From the NCBI GenBank assembly GCA_016214555.1, contig JACROF010000012.1:267485-299555 (forward strand): a stretch of DNA of 32,071 nucleotides, given 5' to 3'. A program made the translations under genes and the position numbers. Shown in pieces: positions 3,728 through 31,111 of the stretch (the first letter of the stretch is position 1; the number at the start of each line of letters is the position of its first letter). A model generated the notes under the pieces. It had not been told where the DNA came from. It did no database searches and saw only the letters and a program-made list of their open reading frames with translations. The stretch comes from Candidatus Levyibacteriota bacterium (lineage in GTDB: Bacteria > Patescibacteriota > Microgenomatia > Levybacterales > UBA12049).

Positions 3728-5605
3728 ATGTGTGGAATACTTGGAGCAATTACAAAGAATAAGACGGAATTGGAGCTTTTTAGGAATGCTCTTCAAACTT
3801 TATCGCATCGAGGACCTGATTCAGAGGGCGTCAAAGAGTTTTCAGATAAAAAATGTGCAGTAATTTTTGGTCAGAAGCGACTGGCTATTATTGATTTACA
3901 TCCCAGCGCGAACCAGCCAATGTCTGACCACACTGGGAAATATTGGATAACATTTAATGGTGAAATATATAACTATTTAGAGCTTAAGGAAATTCTTATC
4001 AAGAAAGGCCACAAATTTCGTACAAAATCTGACACTGAAGTGATTCTTGAAGGCTATAAGGAATATGGGATAGAAATAGTAAAAAAGCTACGAGGCATGT
4101 TTGCATTTGGGTTATTTGATAAGAACAAAAATTTAATTTTTATTGCGCGTGATCATTTTGGCAAAAAACCACTGTATTATTTTTTAGGTAAAGATACTCT
4201 CATTTTCGGTTCTGAAGTTAAAGCACTTGTTGCATTTGTAAAAAACAAAAAGACCTTAACAATTGATCATCAAGCAGTCGTTAAATTTCTTATGTACGGG
4301 TATATACCCTCTCCGAATAGTATCTATAACGAAATTAAAAAACTCCCTGCAGCTACGGTTTTTGAAATTAGCTTGAAGCCAGTATCAATAACAAAGAGAG
4401 CCAGATTTTGGAAGCCTGAAAACATTACTTTAAATAATATACCACTTAGTGATGCGATGGAGAAAACGGACGAACTCTTTAGAGATGCGGTGAAGAGAAG
4501 GCTTATCGCCGATGTTCCTGTCGGAAGTTTTCTTTCAGGCGGAATCGATAGTAGTCTTGTTACTACAATAGCTTCAGAATTTCATCCGGGTATTGAAACC
4601 TTTAGTGTTGTTTATGCAGATAAAGAATTTGATGAATCAAAATATGTCAAAATAGTTGGTGATAATTTGTCAATAAAATATAATATGCTTAATTTCAAAG
4701 ACTCTTATGCATCATCGTTACTTAAAGAAGTACTTTCTTTTATGGATGAACCCATGGCAGATGCTTCATTGCTCCCAACAACATTTATTGCCAAGCAAAC
4801 GAGAAAAAAGGTAACAGTAGCGTTAAGTGGAGATGGAGGAGATGAGTTATTTGGAGGTTATCCTAAATATAATGCTCAACAACTCTTTAATAATCAACTT
4901 TTATTTAATATTCTTAGAGTCGGCAATTCAAAAATTATTGATTATCTACCAATAAATCCATCAAAAAAAAATATTGTTAAAAAACTTCTCAGCGGGACTA
5001 CCATGGAGAGTTATAGTAGGCATTTTGTATGGGGTAGCGGAGGGTTTACCTTTGTTGAGTTACAGAAACTTGTTAAAAGAAGTTTTTTGGAAAATGAGGA
5101 GAAAGTTTTTTCGGAGAGTAAACTTTTTTTTGAAACCTTTAAGCAGGCTGACGAAGGGAATAGAGTGCTTTTTTTAGACGTTATGATTCAATTGCCGGAT
5201 TGGTATCTTGTGAAGGCAGATCGAGGATCTATGTCTCAATCATTGGAAGTTCGTAGCCCATTTCTTGATGTGGATTTAGCAGAATTTGTTATGACTCTCC
5301 CATCAAAATATAAGTACTCGATAAATAAAAACAAAATTCTTCTTAAAAAAATAGCGAATAAGTATTTACCAAAAGCTGTCATTGATCGTAAAAAGATGGG
5401 ATTTGGTCTGCCTTTGAATAAATGGTTAACAACTAACTTTAAAGAAGAAGTCGAGGACTCACTTGCCGCTCTCCCAGAGGATATATTTGATAGGAATTAT
5501 GTTTTGTCTTTATGGGAAGGACTACTCTCAGGTAAAGAAGACAATGGGACAAGAATTTGGAGACTATTTATATTAGGATCATTTATAAAAAACCATGTCA
5601 GCTGA
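3728..5605 (+). CDS. asnB: Asparagine synthase (glutamine-hydrolysing) family amidotransferase
   Basis: A full-length (625 residue) AsnB-type enzyme. The initiator Met is followed directly by Cys2, the glutaminase nucleophile, in MCGILGA. The class II glutaminase domain (about 1-210) shows SHRGPDSEG, FNGEIYNY and RDHFGKKPLYY. The synthetase domain has the ATP PP-loop SGGIDSS at 270-276 and SGDGGDELFGG at 367-377. Glutamine ammonia would be used to amidate an ATP-activated carboxylate. The family includes true asparagine synthetase and enzymes in polysaccharide loci, such as WbpS, linked to amidation of uronic acids. Its position between glycosyltransferases and a methyltransferase, with a uronate epimerase elsewhere in the window, makes the latter role plausible but unproven. 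It lies 2 bases after the upstream GT2 and overlaps the next gene by 11 bases. Confidence 0.93.
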   Translation: MCGILGAITKNKTELELFRNALQTLSHRGPDSEGVKEFSDKKCAVIFGQKRLAIIDLHPSANQPMSDHTGKYWITFNGEIYNYLELKEILIKKGHKFRTKSDTEVILEGYKEYGIEIVKKLRGMFAFGLFDKNKNLIFIARDHFGKKPLYYFLGKDTLIFGSEVKALVAFVKNKKTLTIDHQAVVKFLMYGYIPSPNSIYNEIKKLPAATVFEISLKPVSITKRARFWKPENITLNNIPLSDAMEKTDELFRDAVKRRLIADVPVGSFLSGGIDSSLVTTIASEFHPGIETFSVVYADKEFDESKYVKIVGDNLSIKYNMLNFKDSYASSLLKEVLSFMDEPMADASLLPTTFIAKQTRKKVTVALSGDGGDELFGGYPKYNAQQLFNNQLLFNILRVGNSKIIDYLPINPSKKNIVKKLLSGTTMESYSRHFVWGSGGFTFVELQKLVKRSFLENEEKVFSESKLFFETFKQADEGNRVLFLDVMIQLPDWYLVKADRGSMSQSLEVRSPFLDVDLAEFVMTLPSKYKYSINKNKILLKKIANKYLPKAVIDRKKMGFGLPLNKWLTTNFKEEVEDSLAALPEDIFDRNYVLSLWEGLLSGKEDNGTRIWRLFILGSFIKNHVS

Positions 5606-7506: not shown

Positions 7507-8682
7507 ATGATCAGACTCATAAAATCCACATATCATAACGAAAAAGAGACCACGAAAAAACTTATATCTTTTATAGGGCATGCTAAACAGCTAAGTTTTG
7601 GTCCCGAATGTCACAAGTTTGAAGCTGAATTTGCAAAATGGCAGAAGCGTAAACACTGCGTGTTTTTAAATAGCGGAAGCTCTGCAAATCTTGCAATGAT
7701 TCAGGCGCTTATAAATTTTGGTAAATTGAAAACGGGAGATATGGTTGGATTTTCGGCACTTACTTGGTCCACAAACGTTATGCCCATAATCCAACTTGGT
7801 TTAAAAGCCGTACCAATTGATGTAGAGCTTGATACACTTAATGTTTCAAGTAAGCAAGTTTTAAAAATATTAAAAAAATATCCAATTAAGGTGCTTTTTT
7901 TGACTAATCTTCTTGGGTTCTGCGACGATATTGATGAGATCAAAAGAATCTGCGATAAGAAAAAAATTATTTTTCTTGAAGATAACTGTGAGTCTTTAGG
8001 AACAGTCTATAAAGGGAAACTGTTGGGTAATTATGGGCTAGCAAGCTCAGTATCATTTTATGTTGGGCATCATATGTCAACCGTTGAAGGAGGCGCAGTC
8101 TGTACGGATAGTGAAAGGTTAGCAACAATGCTGAGGATCGTAAGAGCACATGGCTGGGACAGAAATTTATCTGAGCAAAAACAAGTTAAAATTAGGAATA
8201 AATATAAGATTAATTCTACTTTTTATTCTCGTTACACATTTTACGACCTAGGATACAATCTTCGTCCGACTGAGATAAATGCTCACATTGGAAGGATTCA
8301 AATTCCGTTTTTAAAGGAAATTACTAAACAAAGAAATAAAAATTTTTTTGAAATGGCGGTGCCAATTTATCAGAGAACAGATCGATACTATCCAATTAAA
8401 TACAGTCATATTGATTTTCTATCAAATTTTGCTATACCAGTTATTTGCAGATCTCAGAAGATTCGAGATGAGTTAGTTGAAAAATGTAATGACAAAATAG
8501 AGATCCGTCCTATTGTGGGTGGCGATATGACCAGGCAACCGTTTTTTAGTAAGTACATGAAGCAATTTTCATATGAAAGTTCTAATGCTAAACTAGTTCA
8601 CGAGCAGGGTCTTTATTTTGGCAATAATCCTGAATTAACTGATAGAGAAAAGAAATTGATTGTCCAAGTATTTACGAAATAA
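7507..8682 (+). CDS. DegT/DnrJ/EryC1-fold PLP enzyme, ColD-like sugar 3-dehydratase (His in place of PLP lysine)
   Basis: This 391-residue protein has the DegT/DnrJ/EryC1/StrS sugar-aminotransferase fold: FLNSGSSANL (about 53-62, cofactor phosphate binding), LEDNCESLG (about 157-165, containing the Asp that pairs with the pyridine nitrogen) and the active-site loop SFYVGHHMSTVEGGAV. Ordinary family members have Lys where this one has His188, in an HH pair. That replacement marks the PLP- or PMP-dependent 3-dehydratases, such as ColD of GDP-colitose synthesis and the E1 enzyme of CDP-ascarylose synthesis, which remove the 3-hydroxyl of a 4-keto-6-deoxysugar. The E1 iron-sulfur cysteine pattern is not evident and the length suits ColD. 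ManC in this window could start the GDP-sugar route. The substrate remains inferred. Confidence 0.8.
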   Translation: MIRLIKSTYHNEKETTKKLISFIGHAKQLSFGPECHKFEAEFAKWQKRKHCVFLNSGSSANLAMIQALINFGKLKTGDMVGFSALTWSTNVMPIIQLGLKAVPIDVELDTLNVSSKQVLKILKKYPIKVLFLTNLLGFCDDIDEIKRICDKKKIIFLEDNCESLGTVYKGKLLGNYGLASSVSFYVGHHMSTVEGGAVCTDSERLATMLRIVRAHGWDRNLSEQKQVKIRNKYKINSTFYSRYTFYDLGYNLRPTEINAHIGRIQIPFLKEITKQRNKNFFEMAVPIYQRTDRYYPIKYSHIDFLSNFAIPVICRSQKIRDELVEKCNDKIEIRPIVGGDMTRQPFFSKYMKQFSYESSNAKLVHEQGLYFGNNPELTDREKKLIVQVFTK

Positions 8683-8695
8683 CCCCCAAAAATTG

Positions 8696-9640
8696 ATGAA
8701 ACTCAACAAAAGAAAAGACTGTCCGATTTGTGGGAATTTAAAGGTTTTTTATCTGGATAAATTTTGGAGGTGCTCAAAATGTCTCTACCAATTCGCCGAC
8801 CCTCAAGATAAATCTTTCACTAAATCTTATTATCAAGAAGATATTGGATTGTTGGTTCAAAATGTGTTGGAAGGGAAAAATCCAAAAGCGTATCTACGAA
8901 AGTATGCTACCTTAGCAACCAAAACGATTGAACAGCTTAAGAAAGGTTTACGTATTTGTGATATTGGTTGTGGAACGGGTGCCTTTTTATTGAAGTTGGA
9001 AGAGGGTGGGCATAAGGTATATGGCTATGACATCAATAGAGCACAAGCTGAATTCGCAAGAAAAAAAAATGGGTTACGTCATATAAGAGATGCTCAAAGC
9101 CTTAGGGGATACTGCAGAAAAGTAAAAATTAGAAGGGAGTTTTTTGATGTGATTACATGTTTTGAGGTTATTGAACATGTTCTTGATTTGAATAAGTTTA
9201 TTGAAGAGGTTTACGCTTATCTTAAACCTGGTGGGATTTTCATACTCTCAACTCCAAATAACAATCGTATTCAGATGCATGAAAAATGGGATTATCCTCC
9301 AATTCACGTCTCTCGTTTTAAAAAAATGAATATGGAGTTACTCCTTAATAAACATAACTTTACTCTTAAAACCTTTAAGACATTTAATGAGCTTGGTTAT
9401 TATTCTGGGAATTTTATAGCTAAAATGAATATTTCACATAATGCACTTGAGCATATGGTCAAAGCATCAACAGACATCTCATCACCTCAGAAGTCATCAA
9501 GGAATGCTCAGCTCTTTATGCTTTTTTCAAAAGTAAAAAAAACAGCTTGTTGGTTTTTAGATTTACCACTTTATCTTTTTCTTAATATGCAAAAAGAAAA
9601 AGGTCACACTATGTTTGTTGTTGCTAAAAAAATTGTATGA
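8696..9640 (+). CDS. SAM-dependent methyltransferase with N-terminal zinc-ribbon-like motif
   Basis: From the ATG at 8696 this gives a 314-residue methyltransferase. A TTG at 8660 would add 12 residues, but these lie inside the upstream gene. The N terminus has two CxxC pairs (CPICG and CSKC, about 18 residues apart) that probably bind zinc. The catalytic domain follows: ICDIGCGTGAFLLKLEE (motif I), GYDIN (ribose-binding acid), TCFEVIEHV and LKPGGIFILSTPNN. The domain order resembles sugar C- and O-methyltransferases of deoxysugar and capsule loci. Its position 13 bases after the ColD-like dehydratase suggests that it may act on the same deoxysugar, possibly as a C-methyltransferase; this is inference. 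It overlaps the following GT4 by four bases. Confidence 0.8.
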   Translation: MKLNKRKDCPICGNLKVFYLDKFWRCSKCLYQFADPQDKSFTKSYYQEDIGLLVQNVLEGKNPKAYLRKYATLATKTIEQLKKGLRICDIGCGTGAFLLKLEEGGHKVYGYDINRAQAEFARKKNGLRHIRDAQSLRGYCRKVKIRREFFDVITCFEVIEHVLDLNKFIEEVYAYLKPGGIFILSTPNNNRIQMHEKWDYPPIHVSRFKKMNMELLLNKHNFTLKTFKTFNELGYYSGNFIAKMNISHNALEHMVKASTDISSPQKSSRNAQLFMLFSKVKKTACWFLDLPLYLFLNMQKEKGHTMFVVAKKIV

Positions 9641-10872
9641 GGATAGGGATGATTTTTCATTCGTTAAACGTGCCAGGAGGAAGTGCTTCTGTTTTTCTTT
9701 CATTAGCCCTGGCATTGCAGGAGCAGGGTCATAACGTTCATGTTTTTTGTTATTACTTTGATCCCGAATATTGTTTTCCGGAACTTAACAAGAAATTGAA
9801 GATTCACTGTATCAAAAAAATTGATTCAAGGTCTCATAGGATCAACACAAACAGTATTTGGATCCGTTTATTACTAGGGTATGAATACTATTTTAACGCA
9901 AGAAAAATTTATAGACTTCTAAAAAAGTTCAAATTTGATCTTTTGTATGCTGCGGAAGCAAGCGCTTACATTCCCGCTTTGATCTATAAGAAAAAGAAGT
10001 CTGTTCGAGTATATTGGAGCGTTTTTGACCCTATCTCACTTGTAGATAATAAGCGCCCAGGATTGATGACTCATAAATATAGGTGGTTTGCTACACTCCT
10101 TAAAATTCATAACCTTTTTGATACTCGGAATATCAGGAAAATTGATAGGGTAATAGTTCCGACAAAAAAAATGAAAAAACAGCTTGATTTGTTTTATGGT
10201 ATTAGCGCATCAGTTTTTCCTACTGCAGGAGTTCGGGTTCAAGAGAGTAGGAAGAAGCATATTTCTTTAATTGAGCGTAGGTTGCAAGAGAGGTTTAATT
10301 TTAGAAAAGAAGATGAGAACATTCTTTTTTCAAATGGGCACCTCCTTCCCCACAGAAGGTACGAAGATGTACTACATGCATTGCGATCATTGGTAAAAAT
10401 TGGCTATAGATGTAAATATATTATTTCCGGGAGTAATAAGTTTGATCCTAATTATTTTGTCTATCTTCAGGCCTTGGTGAAAAAGTTGCATTTAGATGAC
10501 TATGTGATTTTAGATACAGATTTTAAATCAAACGAAGAAATTTTAGGTTACTATCAGTATTGTGATATTTTTCTTTTTGTGAGCGTTGAGCAGACATGGG
10601 GTTTAGCTCCTTTTGAGGCAATGCTTTGTAAAAAACCAGTAATAATTTCAAAAGGCGTAGGCTGTTCGGAGGTTTTGACCGATAAAAAAGATGCGCTCAT
10701 CGTTCAGGAGCGTTCTCCGGAACAAATTGCAGAATGTATTGAGCATCTTGTTAAAAATAAGCTATTGTACAAGAAGGTATCAGAGGGTGGATACGAACGA
10801 ACGCTTGTTGATTTTACGTATCAGAATATTGCAGCAAAACTTATTAATATGATGAATGCGTCGGGTAACTAA
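9637..10872 (+). CDS. GT4 glycosyltransferase (paralogue of the facing minus-strand gene)
   Basis: A 411-residue GT-B fold glycosyltransferase. The N-terminal acceptor loop is NVPGGSASVFLSLALALQ. The donor domain includes PHRRYEDVLHALRSL and the family 4 signature QTWGLAPFEAMLCKKPVI, followed by GCSEVL. It begins in an ATGA overlap with the methyltransferase. It closely resembles the gene on the opposite strand: both have a D-x-E-x-C-(F/Y)-P-x-L block near residue 50, the PHRR-(Y/F)-ED block, and TWGLA-(P/V)-FEA. The two genes meet tail to tail with their stops overlapping by four bases. The sugar specificity is unknown. Confidence 0.87.
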   Translation: MRIGMIFHSLNVPGGSASVFLSLALALQEQGHNVHVFCYYFDPEYCFPELNKKLKIHCIKKIDSRSHRINTNSIWIRLLLGYEYYFNARKIYRLLKKFKFDLLYAAEASAYIPALIYKKKKSVRVYWSVFDPISLVDNKRPGLMTHKYRWFATLLKIHNLFDTRNIRKIDRVIVPTKKMKKQLDLFYGISASVFPTAGVRVQESRKKHISLIERRLQERFNFRKEDENILFSNGHLLPHRRYEDVLHALRSLVKIGYRCKYIISGSNKFDPNYFVYLQALVKKLHLDDYVILDTDFKSNEEILGYYQYCDIFLFVSVEQTWGLAPFEAMLCKKPVIISKGVGCSEVLTDKKDALIVQERSPEQIAECIEHLVKNKLLYKKVSEGGYERTLVDFTYQNIAAKLINMMNASGN

Positions 10873-14416: not shown

Positions 14417-15388
14417 ATGGCTAAGTCAAATGTACTAGTAACAGGCTCCGCAGGATTTGTGGGTTTTCATGTAGCAAAGCGATTGTTAGAGCGCGGTGAA
14501 AACGTTATTGGTGTAGATAATCTTAATGACTACTACGATGTGTCTCTTAAAAAAGACAGAAATTCATTTTTGCTTAAAGATAGAAAATATTCATTTCATC
14601 AAATTGACATATCAAATGCATCTGAAGTTGAAAAACTAATGCAAGGATCAAAGATAGATAGAATTTGTCATTTAGCTGCTCAGGCAGGCGTTAGATATTC
14701 ACTTGTCAATCCAGCTCTTTACACTCGAACAAATATTGAAGGATTTATTAACATTATTGAGTCCGCAAAAAAACACAACATCAATGAAATTGTTTATGCC
14801 TCAAGTTCATCTGTCTATGGGAATAATCCAATGCCAAGCAATGGGTTTTCAGAGAGTGATGCTGTAAATCAGCCTATATCTGTTTATGGTATGACTAAAA
14901 GAGCAAATGAACTGACAGCATATGCATATCATCATCTTTACGGAATAAATTTTACAGGACTTCGATTTTTTACAGCATATGGGCCATGGGGTAGGCCTGA
15001 TATGGCTTATTTCAGTTTTACTAAAGCAATTCTTGAGAATAAACCCATTAAGGTTTTTAACGAGGGAAATATGAGGCGTGATTTTACCTACATAGACGAC
15101 GTCGTCGATGGGGTAATAAAAGCACTCGAAAAGCCGTTTCCTTATGAAATTTTTAATATTGGTAATTCACGCACTGTTGAACTTAGTTATTTAATTGGAT
15201 GTATAGAAAGAGAGTTACACAAGAAAGCGATTCTGGACATGCAACCACTGCAGCCTGGTGATGTAACTGAAACTTTTGCTAATATTTCTCACGCTGAAGA
15301 ATTTCTTGGATTTCGTCCTAAAATTGCAATTGATGATGGTTTAAAAGAATTTATCAGATGGTATAACGAATATTATGGTAAAAGCTAA
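14417..15388 (+). CDS. NAD-dependent sugar epimerase, UDP-glucuronate 4-epimerase-like
   Basis: A 323-residue extended short-chain dehydrogenase. The NAD-binding loop is TGSAGFVG at 9-16, with an acidic residue after beta2 (VDNLNDYYD). The catalytic elements are Ser in the ASSSSVYG block (128-135) and the Tyr157/Lys161 pair in YGMTK. HLAAQAGVRYSLVNP, LRFFTAYGPWGRPDMA and RRDFTYIDDVVDGV are characteristic of UDP-glucuronate 4-epimerases (GAE/LpsL/Cap1J type), which interconvert UDP-glucuronate and UDP-galacturonate through a 4-keto intermediate. It would supply a uronic acid to the glycan. UDP-glucose dehydrogenase, which makes its substrate, is not in the window. A UDP-glucose or UDP-GlcNAc 4-epimerase is the main alternative. 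It overlaps the next gene by 14 bases. Confidence 0.85.
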   Translation: MAKSNVLVTGSAGFVGFHVAKRLLERGENVIGVDNLNDYYDVSLKKDRNSFLLKDRKYSFHQIDISNASEVEKLMQGSKIDRICHLAAQAGVRYSLVNPALYTRTNIEGFINIIESAKKHNINEIVYASSSSVYGNNPMPSNGFSESDAVNQPISVYGMTKRANELTAYAYHHLYGINFTGLRFFTAYGPWGRPDMAYFSFTKAILENKPIKVFNEGNMRRDFTYIDDVVDGVIKALEKPFPYEIFNIGNSRTVELSYLIGCIERELHKKAILDMQPLQPGDVTETFANISHAEEFLGFRPKIAIDDGLKEFIRWYNEYYGKS

Positions 15389-16524: not shown

Positions 16525-17955
16525 ATGAAAGCAGTAAAAAATTACTTGACTGATGGTCTAAAAAAGTTCTCAGTACCACTGGGTATTTGCTTGATTTTTT
16601 TCATTTTTTACTCGATATTGGGTGTCGTACGGCATAATTATTACGGTTCATTTGGAGCTGATTTAGGTTTTATTGATCGTCAATTTTGGATTTATAGCCA
16701 TTTTAGTCTCGATGGGCTTCTGACAGGAAGTCATTTTGAATTTACTTCACTTTTTCTGTCTTCTTTATATTGGCTATGGTCTGATCCAAGAATGCTTATT
16801 ATTTTTCAGGCGTTCGTAATTACATTTTCAGGTGTTGCTGTATTTCTTTTAGCAAAAAGAAGAAAACTTAAATCTATTCTTTGTTATATCATTCTTCTTT
16901 CATATCTTACTTTTTTTGGTATTCAGAATGCTTTATGGTTTGATGTTCATTCTTCTGTTTGGGGGACAGCATTTTTTATGTGGTTTATTTACTTTTTGGA
17001 TACTAACAATAGGAGGGCTAGTATCATCACTTTTTTTCTAACAATTGGATCAAAGGAGAACATGGCTGCCTATGTATTTTTATTTACAGTAGTGTATTTT
17101 TTAATGACGAGAAAAAAGGATGCACTTCTTTTTGTATTTGCATCAATTGCATATCTATTACTCCTTTTTAAAATTGTATTTCCAGCGATTCTTCCAAAAG
17201 GATACACTTACTCAAGCTCGCAAGGATTAGTTTCTGGAAGTCCATTTCAGCTTTTTGATTCGGCCATAAAACGTGAGACACTGTTTTACACTTTCGCCTG
17301 GTTTGGATTTGTACCTCTTCTACTTCCTTTATACGCAATACCAATCTTAGGTAATTTAGCATCTTACTTTATTTTAGGACGAGAATACGTGGCTGCACAT
17401 GAAATATTTATGCACTATAGAGTTGATCTTGCTCCTCTTCTTGTTTCCTCAACTATTTTTGTGATTGGAAGGTTTAGGCGATTGAATAGTATATTTACTG
17501 CAGTCTATCTCTTGATATGCTTATTATTCTTTCAGTATACCCTTCACTCGCCTCTAAGTTACTTAACAAAGAGTTGGTTTTGGACAAAACCTAGTGGTGT
17601 TGATTCGATTAATAAACTCATAAAGGAAATTCCTCACGATAGTGATCTTGCAGCTCAGAACAACATTTTTCCTCATGTTAGTCAAAGGAGAAAGATTACA
17701 CTCATTTGGCCAGATGAAAGAACATTTAAGAAGAATTCGCCTTGTGGGAAACAAAACTGTCCATGGCTAAGATGGGACGGCTCTCCAAAGTATATAGTTG
17801 TTGATCTTTCCCCAGAATGGGACATCCGTCATTTATTGTGGCAGAACAATGAATACAAAATGGCAATCAATGGGCTGGAGAAGGAAAAGATTATTTCACT
17901 ACATCAACAAGTAGGAACAGCAAAACTATATATAGTCAATAAAAAACCAAAATAA
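16525..17955 (+). CDS. DUF2079-like multi-pass membrane protein (putative GT-C glycosyltransferase)
   Basis: A 476-residue protein from the ATG at 16525; an in-frame TTG at 16513 would add four residues. About ten hydrophobic segments are visible. The first extracytoplasmic loop contains GADLGFIDRQFW (about 44-55), and GSHFEFTSLFLSSLYWLW follows (about 68-85). These match the DLG-x-(F/Y)-x-Q...HF-x-P pattern of DUF2079 proteins, which are distantly related to GT-C transferases. The C-terminal soluble part has SDLAAQNNIFPHVSQRRKI, also usual in the family, and a late Cys pair (CGKQNC). Such proteins are thought to act on lipid-linked sugars outside the membrane, but biochemical proof is lacking. 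It has its own promoter-like sequence. Confidence 0.75.
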   Translation: MKAVKNYLTDGLKKFSVPLGICLIFFIFYSILGVVRHNYYGSFGADLGFIDRQFWIYSHFSLDGLLTGSHFEFTSLFLSSLYWLWSDPRMLIIFQAFVITFSGVAVFLLAKRRKLKSILCYIILLSYLTFFGIQNALWFDVHSSVWGTAFFMWFIYFLDTNNRRASIITFFLTIGSKENMAAYVFLFTVVYFLMTRKKDALLFVFASIAYLLLLFKIVFPAILPKGYTYSSSQGLVSGSPFQLFDSAIKRETLFYTFAWFGFVPLLLPLYAIPILGNLASYFILGREYVAAHEIFMHYRVDLAPLLVSSTIFVIGRFRRLNSIFTAVYLLICLLFFQYTLHSPLSYLTKSWFWTKPSGVDSINKLIKEIPHDSDLAAQNNIFPHVSQRRKITLIWPDERTFKKNSPCGKQNCPWLRWDGSPKYIVVDLSPEWDIRHLLWQNNEYKMAINGLEKEKIISLHQQVGTAKLYIVNKKPK

Positions 17956-21314: not shown

Positions 21315-22150
21315 TAATTCTCTCTTATAACAGAAGTGATTTGTTGAAAGAGTGTTTGTCATCGATATACAACAATGTTAAGAATAACTTTGAGGTGATT
21401 GTTGTTGACAATGCTTCAAGCGACGATAGTATCGAGGTTGTCAAAAAGAATTTCAAAAAAGTGAAACTTATTCAAAATAATGAAAATGCAGGGTTTGCAA
21501 AGGGTTGTAATATCGGGGCAAAAAACGCTACAGGAGAATACCTCCTTTTTCTTAATAGTGATGCAGAGCTAGAGAATGATCCTCTTCCTGCATTACTAAA
21601 AACGTTTGATGAAAATAAAGATGCTGGAATTGTTGGTGGATTGCTTCTTAATCACGATAATACTCTCCAGCGATCTTTCGGAAATTTTTATTTCATTAAA
21701 AATATTTTTATACTACTTTTTAGAGGCGAGAAAGGTGAACTTGAACGCTATAAGAGTTCAATTACTTTGAAAACAGATTGGGTAAGTGGGGGATTTATGA
21801 TGGTAAACAAGGAAGTGTTCCAGAGTGTAGGTGGATTTAATGAATCATATTTTATGTATATTGAAGATATGGATTTGTGTTATAGGGTAAAAAAAATTGG
21901 GAAATGTGTATATGTAAATCCTCATGCAAAAGTAAAACATTTGGGTCAGGGTAGTAGTAACAAGACATTTGCAATAGTGCACATTTTTGAAGGATTACAG
22001 ATTTTTTACAAACAACAGCGAAGTATCTATGAATATTATGTAGTAAAGTGTATGTTGGCAATAAAAGGAATTGCCTCTCTTCTCATAGGTGTATTAACCT
22101 TCAATAAATATTTAATTAGAACTTATATAGGAGCACTAAAAACATTATGA
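21302..22150 (+). CDS. GT2 glycosyltransferase, rhamnosyltransferase (WbbL)-like
   Basis: This 282-residue family 2 glycosyltransferase has a very regular motif set: VSIIILSYNRSDLL, FEVIVVDNASSDDSIE, NNENAGFAKGCNIGAKNATG and FLNSDAELE as the metal-binding loop. These are followed by DWVSGGFMMVNKEVFQSVGGFNE, SYFMYIEDMDLCYRVKKIG with the probable catalytic acids, and VKHLGQGSS. The combination is typical of WbbL-like rhamnosyltransferases, which add a deoxyhexose to a lipid-linked acceptor. The C-terminal end is hydrophobic and may associate with the membrane. It overlaps the acetyltransferase by 13 bases and the polymerase fusion by four bases. Rhamnose specificity is not proven by these motifs. 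Confidence 0.87.
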   Translation: MVSIIILSYNRSDLLKECLSSIYNNVKNNFEVIVVDNASSDDSIEVVKKNFKKVKLIQNNENAGFAKGCNIGAKNATGEYLLFLNSDAELENDPLPALLKTFDENKDAGIVGGLLLNHDNTLQRSFGNFYFIKNIFILLFRGEKGELERYKSSITLKTDWVSGGFMMVNKEVFQSVGGFNESYFMYIEDMDLCYRVKKIGKCVYVNPHAKVKHLGQGSSNKTFAIVHIFEGLQIFYKQQRSIYEYYVVKCMLAIKGIASLLIGVLTFNKYLIRTYIGALKTL

Positions 22151-25100
22151 AAGTAGTTTCGTATATTAAAGATAATTTTTTGCTTTTACTTACTTTGTTT
22201 TTTTTGGTTTTTATACCTTTATATCCCAAGCTCCCTCTTTTTGATATTAAACATACATGGGTATATATTCGGATAGAGGATTTATTAGTTGCCATTGCGT
22301 GGGGAGTGTATTTCGTATCATATTTTCGAAAAAAAGTAACGTTAAAAACCCCTTTATCATTACCCATCATTGTTTTTTGGATAATTGGCGCCTTAGCAAC
22401 TCTTAATGGCATATTGTTTATTTTCCCAAAACTTACTGGGGTCTTCTCAAGCATTGCAATATTGAGTTTTTTTAGAAGAGTTGAGTACCTATCTTTATTT
22501 TTTCTAGCATTTTCTGCGATAAAAAATAAAAATGCAATTAATCCAATAGTTATTACTTTATCCACAACCCTTTTTGGTGTTTTCGCTTATGGTATTGGAC
22601 AAAGATTTTTAGGTTTTCCTGCCTTTTTGACTATGAATGAGGAATTCGCGAAGGGAATACCTTTAAGGCTTTCTGCTCTCGCAAGAATTCCCTCAACTTT
22701 TGCTGGTCATTACGATTTAGCAGCATATCTTATTCTCTTGATTCCAATAATGGGAAGTATGGTATTTGGGTATAAAAAATGGTATTTGAAAATAATCTTT
22801 CTATTGCTGGCAACAGGTGGGCTTATTCTTTTGCTCATGACTGCTTCAAGAGTTTCATTTGCTGTCTATCTTATCTCAGCTGCATTTCTTCTTGTTTTGC
22901 AAAAGCAAAAGAAATATATAATCCCTGTTTTTATTTTAAGTATTCTTCTTCTCAAGTCTTTTACGGGATTATCACAGCGTTTTTCACAAACATTTACTCA
23001 GGTCGATCTCATTGTTGACTCACGAACTGGTAAAGCAATTGGAGTCGCCTCTGAAATTGGAGGAAATACTATTACTATTGAAGACAAGCAGTCAACTGGT
23101 GAAAATCTACCAACAGGGTCAAAATATATCAATTTACCTTCAACAAAAGGTCAACAATTTGATTCGCAGATTATTTATAAAAAACTTAAACCAGGAGGAG
23201 AGGGTGAAGAAATTATAACAAAGGCTGGGAAAGTAATTGTAAAAAAAGCTTTTGCATACGATGTATCATTTACCACTCGATTTCAAGGAGAGTGGCCAAG
23301 GGCGATAGAAGCATTTAAGCGAAATATTCTTTTTGGAAGTGGTTATGGATCAATTAGCCTTGCAACAGACAATAGTTTTCTTCGGATGCTTGGTGAAACA
23401 GGAATCTTAGGATTCTTCTCATTCATATTGATATTTATTTTTATGGGAATTTATCTTTTTAGAACGGTTGATGATATTGACGACAAAAGGATCCGAGCAC
23501 TTATCTATGGTGTTTTGGCAGGATCAATTGGTCTTGGATTAAATGCGATTCTTATTGATGTTTATGAGGCTTCAAAAGTAGCATTCGTTTTATGGACGGT
23601 GATTGGTGTAACTGTTGGTCTTGCTAGGTTATACCAAAAGAAGGAGATTCGTTATATATCAGAAATGAAGAGAATTTTTTCATCTACGCCAGCTCTTGTT
23701 GTGGTATTGCTTGTTAGTGGTTTTTTAGTTTTTTCAAAGTCTCTATCAAATTATTTTGCTGGGGATGATTTTACTTGGTTAAGATGGGCAGCTGATTGTC
23801 ATAGATTGTTGCAAGATCAAATACAGCAATGTTCAACAATACCTGCAACAATCGGTCAGTACTTTACAAATTCTGAAGGATTTTTCTATCGTCCTGGCAC
23901 AAGATCATATTTTCTTCTTGCATACCCAGTTTTTGAGCTTTTCCCGCTGCCGTTTCATGTGATTTCTCTACTTCTTCATCTCTCAGCTACATTATTGGCA
24001 TTTTTTATACTTAAAAAGTTTTTAAGAGATAAAATTTTTGGATTTGTAGGTGCATTATTTTTTCTTGTTCTTAGTATCCACTCAGAAGCAGTTTTTTGGA
24101 TTTCGGTAACTGGTCATATGATTGCAACAAATTTACTTTTTGCCTCGTTTTTGAGCTTTTTATATTGGAAGGAAACAAAGAAAAAAATTCTTTTCGTCTT
24201 TTCAATTTTTGCAATTATGTTTGCAACATTTTTTCATGAATTTGGAACTACTGGCTCATTCCTTCTTATTGCATATGATCTTATTTATGATTTTCCAAAA
24301 AACAAAAAGAGTCTTATGAAAAAATGGTACTACTTTTTACTTTTACTTCCGGTATTACTATATTATCTTTTGAGAAGTAGCGCATCCAGCGTCTGGTTTC
24401 AGGGTGACTATAGTTATAATTTGTCAAAACTTCCTTTAAATGTGATTGGAAATAGTATTGGCTATTTTATTACCAGCATTTCAGGGTTGGTTTTTCTTCC
24501 GTATTATTCAGCAATACGAACTATAAGTGCCCAAAATATCGCAGTAAGTGCATTAATAACTCTGGCTGTTGTAGGTGTGTTGATTGCGTTATTTGTTATG
24601 TACAAAAAGAAGATGCGTAACATTGATTTTAAGCCAATACTTATCGGGTTATCATTTTTTATTATTCCCCTATCTCCATTTCTAGGATTAGGTAATCTTA
24701 GTCCAAGGTATGCCTATACAGGATCAATTGGTGTAATTTTCCTTATTACTTGCTTCATGCAAAGCGTATTTCTCGGTAGAAAGAAGGATAATGTTACATC
24801 AGCTATTTTAGCAATAATAAGTATAATATTTATTTTTGTTCACATTAATCAGCTTGAAAAAAATAACAATGAGTGGAAAAAAGCTGGTGACATCACAAAC
24901 AGCACATTAGTTGGTATTAATTATGCATATGCGAATAATAATTCTTTACTTCCTAACTCTACATTTTATTTTGTTGATACTCCAATTAAATATGGTGATG
25001 CATGGGTATTTCCACAAGGAATGGAAGACCCACTATGGTTTTCCTTCCAGGATTCTTCACTCCAGGTAAAAAATGTATCCTCTATAGAGGAGGCAATTGC

Positions 25101-25224
25101 ACAGACGAAAATTGATCCATTGCGCATAAAAGCATTTCGATTTGAGAACGATGGTACTCTGGTTGAAATGAACTTGCCAACACCTGCTCCAATTCTTCAA
25201 CAAAAATCTACATATGATAAATAG
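22147..25224 (+). CDS. Fusion of O-antigen polymerase/ligase-like domain with a PMT/TMTC-like GT-C domain
   Basis: A single 1025-residue frame carries two membrane enzymes. The first (about 1-500) resembles Wzy/WaaL: many helices, RIPSTFAGHYDLAAYLILLIP near 181, TASRVSFAVYL, then a soluble insert (about 280-380) leading to RAIEAFKRNILFGSGYGS and DNSFLRMLGETGILGF near 400-423. The second (about 512-1025) resembles GT-C protein-mannosyltransferase-like or TMTC-like proteins: a first helix, then an outside loop with GDDFTWLRW (Asp540-Asp541), a Tyr-Arg-Pro block near 581, IHSEAVFWISVTGHM at about 644-658, further helices and a C-terminal soluble tail. The likely junction is near DNA position 23660. 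I infer coupled polymerisation or ligation with addition of a lipid-linked sugar on the outer face. It overlaps both neighbours. Confidence 0.78.
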   Translation: MKVVSYIKDNFLLLLTLFFLVFIPLYPKLPLFDIKHTWVYIRIEDLLVAIAWGVYFVSYFRKKVTLKTPLSLPIIVFWIIGALATLNGILFIFPKLTGVFSSIAILSFFRRVEYLSLFFLAFSAIKNKNAINPIVITLSTTLFGVFAYGIGQRFLGFPAFLTMNEEFAKGIPLRLSALARIPSTFAGHYDLAAYLILLIPIMGSMVFGYKKWYLKIIFLLLATGGLILLLMTASRVSFAVYLISAAFLLVLQKQKKYIIPVFILSILLLKSFTGLSQRFSQTFTQVDLIVDSRTGKAIGVASEIGGNTITIEDKQSTGENLPTGSKYINLPSTKGQQFDSQIIYKKLKPGGEGEEIITKAGKVIVKKAFAYDVSFTTRFQGEWPRAIEAFKRNILFGSGYGSISLATDNSFLRMLGETGILGFFSFILIFIFMGIYLFRTVDDIDDKRIRALIYGVLAGSIGLGLNAILIDVYEASKVAFVLWTVIGVTVGLARLYQKKEIRYISEMKRIFSSTPALVVVLLVSGFLVFSKSLSNYFAGDDFTWLRWAADCHRLLQDQIQQCSTIPATIGQYFTNSEGFFYRPGTRSYFLLAYPVFELFPLPFHVISLLLHLSATLLAFFILKKFLRDKIFGFVGALFFLVLSIHSEAVFWISVTGHMIATNLLFASFLSFLYWKETKKKILFVFSIFAIMFATFFHEFGTTGSFLLIAYDLIYDFPKNKKSLMKKWYYFLLLLPVLLYYLLRSSASSVWFQGDYSYNLSKLPLNVIGNSIGYFITSISGLVFLPYYSAIRTISAQNIAVSALITLAVVGVLIALFVMYKKKMRNIDFKPILIGLSFFIIPLSPFLGLGNLSPRYAYTGSIGVIFLITCFMQSVFLGRKKDNVTSAILAIISIIFIFVHINQLEKNNNEWKKAGDITNSTLVGINYAYANNNSLLPNSTFYFVDTPIKYGDAWVFPQGMEDPLWFSFQDSSLQVKNVSSIEEAIAQTKIDPLRIKAFRFENDGTLVEMNLPTPAPILQQKSTYDK

Positions 25225-30028: not shown

Positions 30029-31111
30029 ATGAAAATTCTTATATTTGCTGGTGGTGTTGGTACCCGATTGTGGCCCTTATCGCGGAAAAATACTCCCAAG
30101 CAGTTTGGACAGATTATTGGCGATAAATCCACGCTGCAACAAACAATCGATCGACTAACGCCTGAGTTTGATCCAAAGGATATTTTTATTGCAACAGGTG
30201 TTCAGTATAAAGAGACAGTGATATCGCAATTGCATAAAATTCCACAGGAAAATTTTATTTTCGAGCCTACAATGCGTGATGTAGGTCCAGCAATTGGTCT
30301 CAATGCTTTTTTACTTGCTAAGCTTCACCCAGATGAGCCAATAGCTATTCTTTGGAGCGATCACATGGTAAAAAATCACGTGATGTTTCGGCACGTATTG
30401 AGGCTGGCAGAGGAAAGTATTATAAAATATGATGCAAATTTTGTTTTTATTGGTCAGGAACCACGCTTTGCAAACCAAAATTTAGGGTGGATAAAATTAG
30501 GAGAAAAAATAAAAGAGGAAAACGGAGCAGAAATTTATGAGTTTAACAAACTTCTTTATAGGCCGAAACTTGAAGAAGCTGAACAATATTTTTCAGTTGA
30601 TAATTACGTATGGAATCTTGGATATTTTGTAACTACTCCACGATTTCTGGTTTCTCTCTTTAAAGAACATGCTCCAGACATGTATAGTAAATTACTGGAA
30701 ATTCAGGATGCGTATCAGACTCCAGAGTTTGAGAAAGTACTCCATAGCGTGTACTCAACGCTTGACAAGATCAGTTTTGACGATGCGATTCTTGTTAAGA
30801 TGTCACCGAAAAATGTATTTGTAATATCAACAGATCTTGGGTGGAGCGACATAGGCGCGTGGGATGCTCTTAAAGAAGCATTGGCAGAGTCATCTGAGGA
30901 GAATATTACTAAAGGGAAAGTTTTACTTGAGGATACTGTTGACTCATTAGTATTTAATTATACAGATCAACTGTCGGTAGGAATTGACCTTAAGGAAATG
31001 CTGGTTATAAATACGGATGATGTACTACTCGTGTGTCCTAAGAGTTCGGTGCCAAAAATTAAGAAACTCGTAGAAAATTTAAAGGGAACATCTCACGAAC
31101 ATCTTGCATAA
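30029..31111 (+). CDS. manC: Mannose-1-phosphate guanylyltransferase (GDP-mannose synthesis)
   Basis: A 360-residue nucleotidyltransferase that makes GDP-mannose from mannose 1-phosphate and GTP. The N terminus has the pyrophosphorylase loop FAGGVGTRLWPLSR (6-19) with PKQF at 23-26. EPTMRDVGPAIGL at 79-91 is typical of ManC, where EPxxRNTAPA is the more usual wording. WSDHMV (109-114) replaces the PADH motif. VWNLGYF and GWSDIGAWDAL follow. The phosphomannose isomerase domain found in many ManC proteins is absent, so mannose 6-phosphate must be supplied by another enzyme. GDP-mannose would feed the GT4 enzymes and possibly the ColD-like route. An internal promoter-like sequence precedes it. 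Confidence 0.92.
   Translation: MKILIFAGGVGTRLWPLSRKNTPKQFGQIIGDKSTLQQTIDRLTPEFDPKDIFIATGVQYKETVISQLHKIPQENFIFEPTMRDVGPAIGLNAFLLAKLHPDEPIAILWSDHMVKNHVMFRHVLRLAEESIIKYDANFVFIGQEPRFANQNLGWIKLGEKIKEENGAEIYEFNKLLYRPKLEEAEQYFSVDNYVWNLGYFVTTPRFLVSLFKEHAPDMYSKLLEIQDAYQTPEFEKVLHSVYSTLDKISFDDAILVKMSPKNVFVISTDLGWSDIGAWDALKEALAESSEENITKGKVLLEDTVDSLVFNYTDQLSVGIDLKEMLVINTDDVLLVCPKSSVPKIKKLVENLKGTSHEHLA

Follow-up and report, generated by a model that had tools for sequence, protein, structure and literature searches.

A predicted ColD-type 3-dehydratase gene in a glycan cluster of a Levybacterium-like Patescibacterium, with relatives in phages

A gene in the glycan cluster of a Levybacterium-like Patescibacterium very probably encodes a ColD-type 3-dehydratase of GDP-4-keto-6-deoxymannose, as predicted from its sequence, its position in trees, and the genes that accompany its relatives. 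The window, which is the whole stretch of 32,071 nucleotides that we analysed, forms the final 32 kb of its contig and belongs to a genome of 1.05 Mb, whose kinship is inferred from its named nearest relatives. The following features of the window are relevant:

7507..8682, + strand: predicted ColD-type GDP-4-keto-6-deoxymannose 3-dehydratase, 391 aa (Pfam DegT, best PDB matches, tree, gmd/fcl context of relatives)
8068..8070, + strand: codon of the putative catalytic His188, in place of the PLP lysine (PDB alignment, clade alignment)
8696..9640, + strand: SAM methyltransferase of class I whose N-terminus contains a zinc-ribbon-like CxxC stretch (domain searches)
30029..31111, + strand: mannose-1-phosphate guanylyltransferase-like gene, ManC (NTP_transferase match; TIGR01479 below the curated cut-off; orthologues in the relatives G013 and G003)

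Results

The open reading frame of the 3-dehydratase is intact and begins with ATG, and stop codons abound on the opposite strand. The protein matches the Pfam family DegT_DnrJ_EryC1 (DegT/DnrJ/EryC1/StrS family, E 4e-57), and its loop SFYVGHHMSTVEGG has a histidine at residue 188 (codon CAT), the site of the PLP lysine in sugar aminotransferases. In phmmer comparisons with the PDB, His188 aligned with His188 of ColD and with the histidine of E1, and engineered ColD chains carry N or K in this column. The residue is invariant in an alignment of 18 sequences, and an equivalent histidine is kept in 80/80 viral relatives, so it does not represent a sequencing error. The proposal of the initial annotation that a histidine replaces the Schiff-base lysine is therefore confirmed by the PDB alignment, the codon, and the clade-wide invariance, and no lysine is found at the PLP position when the protein is aligned with ColD, RfbH/E1, and aminotransferases. 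The loss of the lysine could also be that of a degenerate, inactive aminotransferase, but this is extremely improbable, as all members of the clade keep His188 and the residues of the cofactor site, and the reading frames are intact in the Patescibacterial loci.

ColD (WbdK; PDB 2gms, 2r0t, 3b8x, and 3gr9) from E. coli O55/O111 is the best PDB sequence match with 193 bits, followed by E1 with 138 bits, whereas GDP-perosamine synthase and other Lys-type DegT aminotransferases, which have the fold in common with the window protein and carry the Schiff-base lysine instead of the histidine, reach at most 93 bits. Perosamine synthase also uses GDP-4-keto-6-deoxymannose as substrate. We modelled the structure with the window protein and ten relatives as input, which gave a mean pLDDT of 82 with weak regions near residues 188–191 and 238–252. 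In Foldseek, this model retrieved ColD entries at the top, with a TM of about 0.80 and E1 just behind; its active-site loop has low confidence. ColD shares not only the fold and His188 but also cofactor-site residues, as G57, W87, D159, E162, S183, N251, and R253 align with ColD G56, W88, D159, E162, S183, N248, and R250, whereas residue 187 is a glycine and its ColD counterpart a serine. In two trees, the protein falls into a clade of its own (100/100 support) within the ColD side (99/98 and 100/95), and the E1 branch is separate (99/96), as are the Lys-type enzymes. It thus groups with ColD, and a clustering with His-containing relatives that act on unrelated substrates did not occur. The clade, for which we found no characterised member, is about 31% identical to ColD, and its loop reads SFYVGHHMSTxEGG in contrast to SSFYSHHIATMEGG in ColD. 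Two Levybacterial DegT proteins (L026 and L028) have other His-containing loops (STYAAHTLVTGVGG, STYVAHILITGVGG) and branch outside ColD and E1; in the genome G072, a ColC-like SDR is encoded about 5.6 kb downstream.

Orthologues with 61–81% identity were found in 10 of the 72 other family genomes searched, and more of them in Woese-, Sacchari-, Daviesbacteria, and other Patescibacteria. Beyond Patescibacteria, members of the clade are encoded on a plasmid of Streptomyces (49%), in an uncultured phage of 642 kb (50%), and on several viral contigs (46–50%). The Streptomyces operon has the order gmd, 3-dehydratase gene, and gene of a GDP-L-fucose-synthase-type SDR, and gmd and an SDR gene also adjoin more distant members of the ColD side in Chelatococcus, cyanophage S-CAM7, the archaeon Haladaptatus, and E. 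coli O111, the latter being ColD itself; the SDR beside the Haladaptatus 3-dehydratase is not Fcl-like. In the 642-kb phage, the 3-dehydratase gene follows shortly after the end of an Fcl-type SDR gene (417 bits against a cut-off of 500). Across the wider family, we examined 80 viral loci and found, within 6 kb, an Fcl/ColC-type SDR in 62, gmd in 47, and both in 46, CDP-glucose genes in none, and an RmlB-like SDR in nine, mostly as weak matches. A gmd or Fcl gene is present in 28 of the 36 viral groups that result from clustering at 70% identity, and in 45/80 loci it lies at most 150 bases away on the same strand. Based on this genomic context of the relatives, the substrate is likely GDP-linked, namely the product of Gmd.

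Among the Patescibacteria, an SDR gene follows directly downstream in four loci, one of them in the nearest complete relative (G013, one contig; the others are G043, L037, and L041), and in several other loci it lies at most about 12 kb from the 3-dehydratase gene. The best NCBIfam match of these neighbour SDRs is GDP-fucose synthase, below the curated cut-off, and they mostly keep the Cys, Tyr-Lys, and His motifs of Fcl/ColC. Judged by family they appear ColC-like and are not proven ColC. They belong to several sub-families that form their own clades outside the E. coli ColC/Fcl clade, and the last step may therefore differ from that of colitose.

Sets of gmd, 3-dehydratase gene, and Fcl-type SDR gene are frequent on the IMG/VR viral contigs (L173–L252), several of which have an extra Lys-type DegT gene just upstream. 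In the 642-kb phage (L138), the SDR and 3-dehydratase genes at 8071–10170 are followed by an FkbM-type methyltransferase gene, and a second DegT, which is E1-type with the Cys motif, is encoded at 16559–17860, about 6 kb beyond the 3-dehydratase.

The initial annotation had taken the histidine as a mark of ColD- and E1-type enzymes alike, of which only the ColD side has stood. E1/RfbH, a CDP-4-keto-6-deoxyglucose 3-dehydratase, and SpnQ share the fold and the histidine but differ in the sugar nucleotide and the tree branch, and they bind a [2Fe-2S] cluster via four cysteines that ColD does not have (PMC8987622). This four-cysteine motif occurs in E1-type relatives, whereas the window protein and all members of its clade lack it. 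RfbH is the highest-scoring NCBIfam model, but with 207 of 423 bits it remains far below the cut-off. An E1/SpnQ-type enzyme that depends on an iron-sulfur cluster and a reductase and converts CDP- or dTDP-4-keto-6-deoxyglucose is thus very unlikely in view of the cysteines, the tree, and the partner genes of the viral relatives, and an RmlB-type dehydratase was not found in the own assembly either.

The ColD-type assignment could also be too narrow, as the protein might be a His-type DegT enzyme that uses the Gmd product for a reaction other than C3 dehydration, or a 3-dehydratase whose substrate is a different GDP-4-keto-6-deoxy sugar. The distance of the clade from ColD, Gly187, and the several sub-families of partner SDRs would be compatible with this, but we consider it quite unlikely, since the neighbouring genes match those of ColD loci and the characterised His-type members of the DegT fold that are named in a review are all 3-dehydratases (PMC8987622).

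In the window, the ManC-like gene is indeed present as initially annotated, and it would supply GDP-mannose. It belongs to the conserved bracket of the cluster and lies outside the variable cassette. The 3-dehydratase gene is located in a variable stretch between blocks that relatives share, c3/c4 on the left and c5 to c14 on the right, the latter including manC and the gene of a WcaJ-like transferase, which is as expected for what appears to be a swappable sugar cassette. The methyltransferase gene that had been noted directly after it starts with ATG at 8696 on the same strand, only 13 bases past the stop codon, and the two genes are probably co-transcribed. This proximity had led to the idea of a C-methylated sugar, for example a virenose- or yersiniose-like one made in a route that includes the methyltransferase. 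However, the enzyme is a general class I methyltransferase in which we detected neither of the C-methyltransferase domains Methyltransf_13/14, and no counterpart was found beside the orthologues of the 3-dehydratase, which makes this route highly improbable. Elsewhere in the cluster, 3728–5605 is an asparagine-synthase-like gene, and the Streptomyces cluster has asnB about 11 kb from its 3-dehydratase gene. A protein of 1025 aa (22147–25224), conserved in two relatives, combines a first half that contains an O-antigen ligase/polymerase domain with a second, membrane half that matches no Pfam family.

As the initial annotation stated, the window contains neither gmd nor a ColC-like gene, and our protein searches of the own assembly also retrieved neither of them: there was no gmd above the cut-off and, in this incomplete assembly, no Fcl/ColC-type SDR, the best NF047922 match (63 bits) being a CapI-like SDR. 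In the family, gmd is present in 65/73 genomes, and in the relatives examined it lies within a ugd–rmd–gmd block, mostly followed by uxs (Rmd was identified via PDB 2pk3). Two genes that flank this block, one tested on each side, match between relatives at 43–66% and are absent from the own assembly. The whole Sua5/TsaC family, including the universal tsaC, is likewise missing there, although it was found in 14/14 control genomes. Since these genes are absent as well, an assembly gap is the simplest reading, and gmd is likely missing for this reason. When the gmd block from a congener was used as a DNA query, there was no match, but this was uninformative owing to divergence, hence the protein searches. 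A gap offers no such simple reading for the ColC-like gene, as its slot beside the 3-dehydratase gene is present in the own assembly and filled by other genes. The SDR at 14417 of the window was rejected as the reductase, as it appears to be of the UDP-glucuronate-epimerase type and is not closely related to Fcl. The sole Lys-type DegT of the own genome was likewise rejected as a pathway partner, as it is encoded on a seemingly foreign contig. This contig (C17, L007; 14.7 kb) has a G+C of about 0.40 versus 0.33, broken genes, radical SAM enzymes, and a cytidylyltransferase-like gene, and is probably foreign to the bin.

Discussion

From the homology, the histidine, the clade, and the partner genes of relatives, we infer the activity, the substrate, the product, and the glycan described here. 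By analogy to ColD, the Gmd product GDP-4-keto-6-deoxy-D-mannose would be bound to PMP as a Schiff base via its 4-keto group, and His188 would be the base that acts on the cofactor while the C3 hydroxyl leaves. Hydrolysis of the enamine would yield GDP-4-keto-3,6-dideoxymannose and ammonia, glutamate would regenerate PMP, and an iron-sulfur cluster or reductase partner would not be used. An SDR of the Fcl/ColC type or another type would then reduce the product and perhaps epimerise C5, giving a 3,6-dideoxyhexose, by analogy L-colitose, which the glycosyltransferases of the cluster would place into a surface glycan.

Of the 3,6-dideoxysugar route from GDP-mannose that had been suggested at the outset, the 3-dehydratase on the GDP-mannose/Gmd branch is borne out, whereas the assembled genome contains no ColC/Fcl-type enzyme, and, unlike the situation for ColD, gmd and colC are not clustered with the 3-dehydratase gene. 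By analogy, the end sugar may be of the L-colitose type, but it may also be a D-sugar, provided that Rmd carries out the reduction. In one other Levybacterial genome (G020), an orthologue of the 3-dehydratase occurs together with gmd and rmd, whereas no Fcl-type SDR exceeds 72 bits. In such Levybacteria, including the own genome, reduction by Rmd without C5 epimerisation would give a GDP-D-3,6-dideoxyhexose, for example tyvelose; we regard this as unlikely. If true, it would be a GDP route to sugars that otherwise belong to the CDP route, and to our knowledge, tyvelose-like D-3,6-dideoxyhexoses are known only from the latter.

The mechanism is ordinary and the ColD-type enzyme is already known; the interest lies in its occurrence in Patescibacteria and phages. 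Among the searchable papers, there was nothing on point on colitose-type sugars in Patescibacteria, and the occurrence of the enzyme in Levybacteria and many phages had not turned up. The chemistry of 3,6-dideoxysugars has been known mainly from enterobacterial O-antigens, and our prediction extends it to Patescibacteria and their minimal genomes, in which it would form a swappable cassette within a glycan cluster. As the set of gmd, 3-dehydratase gene, and Fcl-type SDR gene is frequent in phage contigs as well, our data suggest a role of this set in surface variation among Patescibacteria, their hosts, and phages.
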